Both the position numbers and the translations under genes were made by a program. From Rhodococcus pseudokoreensis (GTDB lineage: Bacteria; Actinomycetota; Actinomycetes; Mycobacteriales; Mycobacteriaceae), in the NCBI RefSeq assembly GCF_017068395.1, contig NZ_CP070619.1, positions 7,316,001-7,380,000 of the forward strand: 64,000 nucleotides of DNA, given 5' to 3'. Below the pieces are notes generated by a model. It ran no database searches, was not told where the DNA came from, and saw nothing but the letters and a program-made list of their open reading frames with translations. This document shows positions 60,218-63,445 of the stretch, one piece after another. The first letter of the stretch is position 1; each line of letters begins with the position of its first letter.

Positions 60218-60490
60218 ATGGCTGTCACAGTTTCGATCCCCACCATCCTGCGTTCCCACACCGGCGGCGAGAAGCGAGTGGAGGCAACAGGTCCCACACT
60301 TTCCGCCGTCATCGACGACCTCGACGGCAACTACGGCGGCATCAAGGACCGCCTGATCGACGGCGGCCGGCTGCACCGGTTCGTCAACGTGTACGTCAAC
60401 GACGAGGACGTCCGATTCTCGGGCGGACTCGACACCGAGGTGGCCGACGGGGATTCCGTGACCATCCTGCCCGCCGTCGCCGGAGGCTGA
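60218..60490 (+). CDS. cysO: Ubiquitin-like sulfur carrier CysO
   Basis: MoaD/ThiS-type sulfur carrier of 90 residues. The C-terminus ends in Gly-Gly (TILPAVAGG), which is turned into a thiocarboxylate that gives sulfur to O-phosphoserine on CysM. The beta-grasp fold is seen in [19 protein letters not shown] and [23 protein letters not shown] precedes the ATG. cysM begins 8 bases after the stop. A near-identical start region is found again at 62416, where the gene has decayed. Confidence 0.96.
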
Positions 60491-60498
60491 TCGCGGCC

Positions 60499-61461
60499 GT
60501 GGCGCGGTTCGATTCGCTCATCGACACCCTCGGCGACACACCCCTGGTCGGGCTGCCGCGCCTGTCGCCGAGCTGGACCGGCACCTCGCCGGTCCGCCTG
60601 TGGGCGAAGCTCGAGGACCGCAACCCCACCGGTTCGGTGAAGGACCGTCCCGCCCTCCGCATGATCGAACAGGCCGAGAACGACGGCACCCTGACACCCG
60701 GCGCGACTATCCTGGAACCGACCAGCGGGAACACCGGCATCTCCCTGGCGATGGCCGCGAAACTCAAGGGCTACCACCTCATCTGCGTGATGCCCGAGAA
60801 CACGTCCGTCGAACGCAGGCAACTGCTCACGATGTTCGGCGCCGAGATCATCGACTCACCGGCGCGCGGCGGCTCGAATCAGGCTGTGGCCCTGGCCAAG
60901 GAGCTGTCCGCGGAGCACCCCGACTGGGTGATGCTGTACCAGTACGGCAATCCCGCGAACGCGCTGGCGCACTACGAGACGACGGGGCCGGAGATCCTGC
61001 GGGACCTGCCCGAGATCACTCACTTCGTGGCCGGCCTCGGCACCACCGGAACCCTGATGGGCGTGGGTCGCTACCTCCGCGAACACGTCGACGGCATCGA
61101 GATCGTCGCGGCGGAACCCCGCTACGGGGAACTCGTGTACGGCCTCCGCAACATCGACGAGGGCTTCGTACCCGAACTGTACGACGAGTCCGTCCTCACC
61201 TCGCGGTTCTCCGTCGGCCCCGCCGCCGCGGTCCGCCGCACCCGGCAACTCATCGACAACGAAGGCATCTTCGCGGGCATTTCCACCGGCGCGATCCTCC
61301 ACGCCGCGCTGGGAGTCGCGCGCAAAGCGGTCAAGGCCGAACGCGCCGCCGACATCGCGTTCATCGTCGCCGACGGCGGATGGAAATATCTGTCGACCGG
61401 CGCCTACGGCGGTACGGTCGAGGAAGCGGAAGAAGCACTGGAAGGGCAGCTGTGGGCATGA
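60499..61461 (+). CDS. cysM: O-phosphoserine sulfhydrylase CysM (first copy)
   Basis: PLP enzyme that makes cysteine from O-phosphoserine and CysO thiocarboxylate. It has 320 residues. The PLP lysine is Lys48 ([11 protein letters not shown]); the asparagine loop [10 protein letters not shown] and the [10 protein letters not shown] phosphate loop are clear, and [15 protein letters not shown] matches the OPS-binding stretch of the M. tuberculosis enzyme. The C-terminus ends EGQLWA as in mycobacterial CysM, where the tail closes the active site. GTG start; same order as in M. tuberculosis. Confidence 0.95.
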
Positions 61462-61480
61462 TGTCAAGGATGTGCGGATC

Positions 61481-62155
61481 ATGAGTTCGCCGTTCGACTC
61501 CTCGCGATTCGGCGCGCCGGTGCCGAGGGGTGGCGCGTCGCCGGCCCCCGCGCGCAAGTCGAAGCCGCTGTGGCTGCAGTCCGCGATCCTCGTCGGCACG
61601 TTCACGATGCTGCTGTACGTCATCGAGATCGCCGACGTGGCGTCCGACGAGCGACTCGAAGACAACGGCGTCCAGCCGCGCACGATCGACGGGCTGTGGG
61701 GAATTCTGTTCGCCCCGGTCCTCCACGACGACTGGGCGCACCTGTTCGCGAACACCGTCCCACTGCTGGTCCTCGGGTTCCTCGTGCTGCTGTCGGGCAT
61801 CGCCCGCGGACTCGCCGCCACCGGGATCGTCTGGGTGGTCGGCGGTGTGGGCACCTGGTTGACCGGCGGATCCTATTCCAACCACATCGGCGCCTCCGTC
61901 CTGATCTTCGGCTGGCTCGCCTACCTGCTGGTTCGAGGAGTCTTCGCCCGCAACCTCGGCCAGATCCTCGTCGGCGTGGTGGTGTTCGTCGTGTACGGCA
62001 GTCTGCTGTGGGGTGTGCTGCCGAGCACGCCCGGGGTGTCCTGGCAGGGGCATCTGTTCGGCGCCGTCGGCGGGGTCCTCGCAGCCTGGCTGCTCTCCGC
62101 CGACGCCAGGAAGCAGCGGGCGCGGAAAGCGGTAGGGCCGCAATCGTTCGGATGA
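61481..62155 (+). CDS. Rhomboid-family intramembrane serine protease
   Basis: Membrane protein of 224 residues with about six helices. The catalytic dyad is Ser139 (HIGASVLIFG) and His191 (WQGHLFGAVGG); WAHLFANTVPLLVLG carries the conserved His and Asn of helix 2. A proline and alanine rich N-terminus (about 1-30) is cytoplasmic. The ATG at 61481 is chosen because AAGGA lies about 10 bases upstream; a GTG at 61472 is only one base away. It matches M. tuberculosis Rv1337. Substrates are unknown. Confidence 0.92.
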   Translation: MSSPFDSSRFGAPVPRGGASPAPARKSKPLWLQSAILVGTFTMLLYVIEIADVASDERLEDNGVQPRTIDGLWGILFAPVLHDDWAHLFANTVPLLVLGFLVLLSGIARGLAATGIVWVVGGVGTWLTGGSYSNHIGASVLIFGWLAYLLVRGVFARNLGQILVGVVVFVVYGSLLWGVLPSTPGVSWQGHLFGAVGGVLAAWLLSADARKQRARKAVGPQSFG

Positions 62156-62415
62156 GCGGCCCGCCACGGCGAACAGGTGATCTACCGGTGTGTACGCCGC
62201 TTCCGGCGGCCGAGCGTATGCCCTGCTGGTAGGCTCCTCGCGAGATCCGGGCACACCAGCAACTGCGTAATTCAGGCCATCGACAGTGTCGTCACGGGGG
62301 CCGGTCGAGGTGGTTCGAACTCGCGGATTCGCGCACACGGCGGGTCGCCGACGTCCGGGCGTCCCCAGCGGCGGATCTCCGCCGCCGTACCCCACCGCAC
62401 CCTCAGGAGTTGATC
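62156..62415 (+). other. Region after the rhomboid gene, no gene seen
   Basis: About 260 bases with no convincing ORF and no clear promoter or terminator. In M. tuberculosis the next gene is murI, which is absent here. AGGAG at about 62404-62408 is the retained Shine-Dalgarno of the cysO remnant. Confidence 0.6.
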
Positions 62416-62493
62416 ATGGCTGTCACAGTTTCGACCCCCGACGTCGACGGCGAGTGTCCGTCCGATGTGCAGTCACGGAAGGCCGATCGCTGA
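62416..62493 (+). pseudogene. cysO remnant, 25 codons
   Basis: The Shine-Dalgarno, the ATG and the first six codons (MAVTVS) match cysO at 60218 almost base for base, then the similarity is lost. The last bases align again without gaps to the cysO-cysM junction: GGCCGATCGCTGACGTGGC here against GGCTGATCGCGGCCGTGGC there. The cysO stop TGA has become CGA, and a new TGA closes the frame one base before the cysM2 GTG. The beta-grasp core and the Gly-Gly tail are lost, so it cannot carry sulfur. It may still couple translation to cysM2. Confidence 0.8.
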
Positions 62494-62494
62494 C

Positions 62495-63445
62495 GTGGCA
62501 AGGTTCGATTCGTACATCGACACTCTCGGGAACACACCACTCGTCGGTCTGCCCCGGCTGTCGCCACGCTGGAACGGCAGCAACTCGGTGCGGTTGTGGG
62601 CCAAGCTCGAGGATCACAATCCCACCGGTTCGATCAAGGATCGCCCGGCGCTGCGCATGATCGAGCAGGCCGAACGGGACGGCCGTCTGACCCCGGGGTC
62701 GACGATTCTCGAATCGACCAGCGGAAACACCGGCATCTCCCTGGCCATGGCCGCAAAACTGAAGGGCTATCAGCTGATCTGCGTGATGCCCGAGAACACG
62801 TCGATGGAACGCCGCCAGCTCCTGACGATGTTCGGCGCCCGGATCATCGACTCCCCGGCCGCCGGTGGTTCCAACGAGGCCGTCGCCGTCGCGATGCGAC
62901 TGTCGAACGAGAATCCGGACTGGGTGCTGCTCTACCAGTACGGCAACCCGGCCAACGCGATGGCGCATTACGAGACGACCGGGCCGGAGATCTTGCGGGA
63001 CCTGCCCGAGATCACCCATTTCGTGGCGGGGCTCGGCACCACCGGAACCCTCATGGGAACGGGTCGGTTCCTCCGCGAACACGTCGACGGCGTCGAGATC
63101 GTGGCCGCGGAACCGCGCTTCGGCGAGATGGTCTGCGGTCTCCGCAACATCGAAGAAGGATTCGTACCGGAGTTGTACGACGAGTCGGTACTCACCCGTC
63201 GATTCCGGGTGCGTCACGCCGAGGCGATCCAGCGCACCCGCGAGTTGATCGACGTCGAGGGAATCTTCGCAGGCACGTCCACCGGCGCCAATCTCCATGC
63301 CGCACTCGATGTGGCGTGGTCCGCCGTCGAGTCGGGGCAGCGCGCCGACATCGCCTTCGTGGTCGCCGACGGCGGATGGAAATACCTCTCGACCGGAACC
63401 TACGACCCACAGGTCCAGGTCCTCGAAGAGGCCTGGGAACGGTAA
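62495..63445 (+). CDS. CysM paralogue (second copy)
   Basis: PLP-dependent cysteine synthase-like protein of 316 residues, very close to CysM at 60499. Lys48 ([11 protein letters not shown]), [20 protein letters not shown] and [15 protein letters not shown] are all kept, so a PLP enzyme with an O-phosphoserine type pocket is expected. The C-terminus differs: it ends EEAWER and lacks the EGQLWA tail. The CysO gene in front is a remnant. It may use sulfide or CysO from the first locus. The GTG at 62495 gives MARFDS as in the first copy. It sits where murI is expected. Confidence 0.9.

Follow-up and report, generated by a model that had tools for sequence, protein, structure and literature searches.

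How could a cysteine synthase that belongs to a ubiquitin-like sulfur carrier persist once the carrier gene in front of it was lost, and which sulfur donor would it then use? This question is raised by a locus near the end of a 64,000-nucleotide (nt) stretch of the Rhodococcus pseudokoreensis genome (NZ_CP070619.1, positions 7,316,001 to 7,380,000, forward strand; hereafter the window), in which the genes follow one another in the order ClpS, DUF2017, P1-type peptidase, mec, cysO, cysM1, rhomboid, cysO remnant, cysM2 and Rv1339-like gene, the names ClpS, DUF2017, P1 and Rv1339 being those that we presume to apply here. In Mycobacterium tuberculosis, mec frees cysteine from CysO-Cys, and we take CysM (Rv1336) to be an O-phosphoserine sulfhydrylase that depends on the CysO thiocarboxylate. 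An earlier note on this DNA had pointed to two cysM genes flanking the rhomboid gene; both are present, and their products share 256 identical out of 317 aligned residues. Our best explanation, to which we assign a probability of roughly 0.6, is that CysM2 is a duplicated O-phosphoserine sulfhydrylase freed from CysO, with the remnant of cysO as its leader.

Among 28 genomes of the genus, seven carry both CysM copies, ten carry CysM1 only and eleven carry none (E ≤ 1e-60). All seven CysM2 proteins have kept Lys51, the TSGNT motif at 78–82, Arg211, Arg220 and Ser265 (M. tuberculosis numbering), and Arg220, which we take to bind O-phosphoserine, is likewise present in 37/37 other CysM proteins. 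None of the seven genes contains a stop codon, and the ratio of summed nonsynonymous to summed synonymous divergence (dN/dS) amounts to 0.072 as compared to 0.038 for CysM1 (21 pairs each); CysM2 is under purifying selection. What is absent from all seven proteins is the C-terminal GQLWA segment. Every CysM2 departs at 17 positions from a residue shared by at least 36 of the 37 other CysM proteins, and nine of these positions, among them the entire GQLWA end, fall within the C-terminal 19 residues. In a survey of 104 distinct CysM proteins, 96 end in LWA and one in VWA, all 97 with a full cysO upstream, while the seven CysM2 have neither; 118 of the best 120 out of 7996 database matches end in QLWA, the exceptions being P0001, which is the CysM2 cluster, and P0027, a 296-amino-acid protein that stops short (reading frames below 280 amino acids were dropped from these tail surveys). 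Of the features by which an actinobacterial CysO-dependent CysM is recognized, CysM2 possesses Lys51, the TSGNT loop and Arg220 but lacks the GQLWA end and an adjacent intact cysO. Its score against TIGR01136 (cysteine synthase CysK/CysM subfamily) is 345.4 bits, just above the cut-off of 344.15, and its score against TIGR01138 is 287.7, below the curated cut-off of 394.2. In M. tuberculosis CysM, the C-terminal tail reportedly folds into the active site and its last five residues are said to be involved in donor selectivity; once the tail is removed, the aminoacrylate is reportedly shorter-lived and the selectivity for CysO is lost. It is the combination of kept catalytic residues with a missing tail that leads us to read CysM2 as an O-phosphoserine sulfhydrylase freed from CysO. 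Judged from its sequence, the enzyme most likely takes sulfur from a small donor, and not selectively from the CysO thiocarboxylate; this donor would be sulfide or similar, used beside a normal CysO-dependent CysM1.

The best match of CysM2 in the Protein Data Bank (PDB) is M. tuberculosis CysM (E 9.5e-144), a member of the same family with the same residues for pyridoxal phosphate (PLP) and O-phosphoserine, from which it differs by the lack of the last five residues and of an adjacent intact cysO. Enterobacterial CysM (OASS-B) has its fold family and chemistry in common with CysM2, for which a small donor is expected too, but CysM2 scores only 226.8 bits to 2jc3 against 481.8 to 3dki. According to an excerpt of PMC9547175, the enterobacterial enzyme tolerates larger donors, thiosulfate being one. 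O-phosphoserine and sulfide, the substrates predicted for CysM2, are those of M. tuberculosis CysK2 (Rv0848) according to an excerpt of PMC11361707; CysK2 is a different enzyme, likened by substrates and not by sequence, whereas CysM2 derives from a CysO-linked CysM. Rv1077, a cystathionine beta-synthase that is also named cysM2 (PMC12910592, in excerpt), is a different gene and has nothing but the name in common with Rhodococcus cysM2. No CysO-less CysM paralogue of Rhodococcus appeared among the literature matches listed, as far as listings and the starts of abstracts tell.

The fate of the carrier gene can be read from the short frame in front of cysM2. Alignment of positions 60218–60520 with 62416–62525, much as proposed in the earlier note, yields a score of 103, whereas 500 base shuffles reached 62 at most, and the 19-mer found at the start of cysO has only two plus-strand occurrences in the window, at 60218 and 62416. 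The 25-codon frame described previously, with its AGGAG Shine-Dalgarno, first codons of cysO and renewed match at the junction, was found in every part. Six of the seven genomes have the remnant as an intact frame of 24 codons that runs from the cysO start to the original TGA of cysO and ends 8 nt ahead of the cysM2 GTG, which is the same spacing as between cysO and cysM1 in the window; relative to cysO, these six copies show a net loss of 198 nt, that is 66 codons, in frame. In the window genome alone, a 4-nt deletion shifts the frame, which consequently ends at a TGA 1 nt before the GTG. The reported change of the original TGA to CGA is present in the window, but lies outside the shifted frame, and the six other genomes keep the TGA. 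The statement that everything between the two matching ends was lost is not exact, as ~27 nt of uncertain origin stand between the recognizable ends (shuffle p 0.013–0.045 in four genomes tested); protein-level alignment of the 3' half of the remnant to CysO gave p values of 0.05–0.37 (three genomes, the stretch being very short). For the ThiS domain, the remnant frame of the window returned no Pfam or NCBIfam match; its C-terminal Gly-Gly is absent, Glu-Gly being the end of the six intact copies. That the ubiquitin-like partner was lost, as proposed before, is supported.

Conservation across the seven loci suggests what the remnant may be kept for. Invariant columns make up 92% of codons 1–4, 80% of the 20 nt before them and 86% of the segment from the stop to the GTG, as compared to 67% of the rest of the remnant frame and 60% of the 243-column spacer, a pattern more in line with a translation leader than with selection on the peptide. 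The sequence GGAAGG stands at the site at which an intact cysO has GGAGG, coding for the CysO C-terminus; it is 12 nt from the GTG, as in cysO-cysM1, and is likely to act as the Shine-Dalgarno of cysM2. The short frame, with the start site of cysO and the stop/Shine-Dalgarno junction, would probably keep cysM2 translated by coupling. In 13 nearer Rhodococcus, the first 12–15 nt of cysO itself are nearly fixed at the DNA level, and this start (60218–60240 and relatives) perhaps serves translation initiation. Further upstream, the block at 62222–62254 is invariant in the seven genomes except for one base and is a possible promoter or regulator site; within it, TGGTAGGCT at 62227–62235 may be an extended -10 box, in which case cysM2 would be transcribed from a separate promoter.

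When and where did the second copy arise? Among 401 sampled genomes of the family, a CysM match at E ≤ 1e-140 was obtained in 184, and two such matches occurred only in the same seven (at most five candidates scored per genome). The 11 CysM-free Rhodococcus miss the mec-cysO-cysM block between P1 and rhomboid (L189–L199) and gave no match to CysO (E ≤ 1e-5) or close match to CysM (E ≤ 1e-60) elsewhere, one of these genomes being 75% complete. On a phylogeny built from seven genes of the neighbourhood (5472 columns from 16 genomes, 13/13 inner branches starred; G018 left out for its cut contig), the history of cysM2 requires two events, acquisition in the stem of a nine-genome clade and loss in the common ancestor of G005 and G008. 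A protein tree of 44 sequences (24 from Rhodococcus and 20 hand-picked across other genera, out of more than 100 at hand) unites the seven CysM2 in one fully supported group on a branch of 0.31, and R. koreensis CysM2 (L004) is 99% identical to that of the window. Short pieces of DNA are more telling than whole-gene measures. With gaps allowed and with all seven CysM2 copies and four farther Rhodococcus included, the cysM2 junction scores 33.4–37.0 (of 43) against the cysO-cysM1 junctions of the 13 nearer Rhodococcus, 25.3–28.6 against the four farther ones (G013, G018, G020, G025) and 20.5–31.6 against 81 loci of other genera; in an ungapped version, one-base spacer differences sank loci including G010, G024 and G027, and the four farther genomes were ungrouped. 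In the G026 remnant, the 5' end of cysO has 18–20 of 21 positions in common with the 13 nearer Rhodococcus and no more than 16 with the others. Hence the duplication of the cysO-cysM block postulated in the earlier note is supported as an old event inside Rhodococcus, on the stem branch of a single clade that includes R. koreensis. The block would have been copied into the gap between rhomboid and the Rv1339-like gene, and most of the copied cysO would then have been removed in frame (net 66 codons), while CysM2 would have retained the PLP lysine and the O-phosphoserine-binding arginine and shed its C-terminal GQLWA. Dating by synonymous sites was uninformative, these being near saturation between the copies. 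We saw no sign of gene conversion: CysM2 DNA of G000 and G027 is 78.0 and 77.5% identical to CysM1 of its own genome as compared to 76.8–77.8% for other CysM1 of the clade.

Several observations weigh against our reading, those on function being taken up here and those on origin below. Loss of cysO and loss of the tail belong to one evolutionary lineage, i.e. their association is without replication; the candidate Shine-Dalgarno lies 12 nt from the GTG, which is far; the columns that vary among the six 24-codon frames are distributed 7/3/7 over the codon positions, so that no selection on the peptide is seen; and a sigma-70 promoter scan upstream of cysM2 found none. Moreover, CysO1 is still encoded next door and all seven genomes encode a second CysO-like protein, either of which CysM2 could use. 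An enzyme that stayed CysO-dependent in this manner, its local cysO being redundant, would fit with an intact cysO ~2 kb upstream and with the presence of the second protein (C-terminus VAGG) in 11/28 genomes including all seven with CysM2. We nevertheless consider it unlikely: the -WA end found in 97/97 cysO-linked CysM is gone from every CysM2, and the second CysO-like gene also occurs in four CysM2-free genomes (G005, G008, G010, G024). This second protein (L185; G000:C6:6162900–6163178, minus strand) is 45% identical, and its gene adjoins one for a BNR-repeat/sialidase-type product, as judged by eye. The leader might instead be a cysteine-sensing attenuator, in which slowing of the ribosome at Cys codons alters expression of cysM2. 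CysO has no Cys, whereas the leader has a Cys codon in 7/7 genomes and a second one in 4/7, and cysteine-responsive leader frames have been described in mycobacteria. The hallmarks of an attenuator are, however, a run of Cys codons and alternative structures, while the leader offers one or two isolated Cys codons, a weak signal, and little covariation (double changes in 2/98 pairs, no support for structure), and an Rfam search of 60000–64000 gave no match up to an E of 1; we regard attenuation as improbable. Even less can be said for a decaying pseudogene on its way to being lost. Absence of CysM2 from the pair G005 and G008 is most simply explained by loss, and its dN/dS is about twice that of CysM1, but a value of 0.072, seven reading frames without stops and retention of the catalytic residues make decay very improbable.

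As to origin, the case for duplication inside Rhodococcus is built on short pieces, namely the junction and the cysO 5' end, since whole-protein identity does not discriminate. CysM2 is 81% identical to CysM1 and up to 80–81% identical to Nocardia CysM (81% over part of the protein), its branch is long, and third codon positions are uninformative, all of which would be compatible with transfer of a cysO-cysM2 piece from another actinobacterium. The best tree joins CysM2 to 13 Rhodococcus CysM1 only weakly (67/79), and forcing it together with the nine CysM1 of the clade costs 5.9 log units, which the approximately unbiased (AU) test does not reject (p-AU 0.124). The earlier note had treated such equal distance to other genera as grounds against duplication, and on protein identity this is close to what we find; the short pieces, by contrast, fit none of the 81 other-genus loci as well as they fit the 13 nearer Rhodococcus, and the AU test disfavours a grouping with the Nocardia rows (p 0.016) but does not reject one with all 17 Rhodococcus CysM1 (p 0.55). 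Transfer therefore appears a doubtful source, and we take CysM2 as a protein that changed fast early after duplication in Rhodococcus. The previously suggested consequence that the duplication displaced the essential murI has next to no probability left. No murI was found in the slot, as stated before, and the gene occupies it in 2/2 Gordonia loci, where 942–953 nt containing a MurI frame separate rhomboid from the Rv1339-like gene, and presumably also in M. tuberculosis, where we take murI to follow the rhomboid gene. However, this spacing is only 79–227 nt in the 20/20 cysM2-free Rhodococcus loci showing both genes (G018 is cut) and 68–330 nt in 33/33 such loci, out of 36, of Nocardia, Aldersonia and Nocardiaceae, leaving no room for murI; these comparisons indicate that the slot was already without murI before cysM2 arrived. 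A genome search for murI, as had been advised, returned a glutamate racemase match elsewhere in 27/28 Rhodococcus genomes, the remaining genome being 74% complete; the match is divergent and below the TIGR00067 cut-off, yet has the CNTAS and GCTHYP motifs. Across Rhodococcus, murI thus seems to have been replaced or strongly changed. The sole TIGR00067 match of the genome lies at L108 1372–2142 on the minus strand and scores below the cut-off, as do those of all 27 Rhodococcus having one.

The features of the locus are compiled in the table. The mec gene adjoins cysO-cysM in 17/17 Rhodococcus loci carrying the block. The best PDB match of cysM1 is M. tuberculosis CysM 3dki (E 1.2e-157), with an alignment that reaches the last residue of 3dki, and the Rv1339-like gene has a tblastn match in 27/28 Rhodococcus loci. 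The rhomboid match of the draft genome G016 (L161) contains one in-frame TAG, which reflects a sequencing error or decay, and that of G025 (L168) contains one TGA.

Table. Features of the cysO-cysM region and their positions in the window.
Feature	Position	Strand	Basis
mec, JAMM protease	59704..60156	+	PF14464, 105.1 bits
cysO, intact ubiquitin-like sulfur carrier, C-terminus VAGG	60218..60490	+	PF02597 ThiS, 66.4 bits
cysM1, CysO-linked cysteine synthase, C-terminus EGQLWA	60499..61461	+	PDB 3dki
Rhomboid protease gene	61472..62155	+	PF01694, 82.7 bits
33-nt near-invariant block	62222..62254	+	Alignment of 7 loci
Shine-Dalgarno AGGAG of the cysO remnant	62405..62409	+	Sequence; kept in 7/7
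cysO remnant, 25-codon frame, frame-shifted in the window	62416..62493	+	Alignment of 7 loci
GGAAGG, candidate Shine-Dalgarno of cysM2	62477..62482	+	Sequence
cysM2, CysM paralogue without GQLWA tail, C-terminus EEAWER	62495..63445	+	PF00291, 222.2 bits
Rv1339-like gene, putative start, runs past the window end	63571..64000	+	Downstream border of inserted block

Taken together, what is new is that a carrier gene and the tail associated with it were lost jointly. Tentatively, and with somewhat less confidence than we place in the reading of CysM2 itself, we propose that the seven genomes harbour an 'uncoupled' branch of the ubiquitin-like-protein-dependent cysteine synthases, in which the carrier and the C-terminal lid selecting for it were dropped after duplication, a carrier-bound route via CysM1 and a free-donor route via CysM2 would coexist, and the carrier gene would survive as a leader driving translation of CysM2. 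If true, CysM2 would be a natural counterpart to the laboratory deletion of the CysM tail and would offer a clean way to examine how an enzyme departs from its ubiquitin-like sulfur carrier, and the locus would provide a case of a gene converted to a translation leader for its former neighbour. CysM1 and CysM2, residing in one cell, would then represent an enzyme pair for comparing carrier-bound with free-donor cysteine synthesis.

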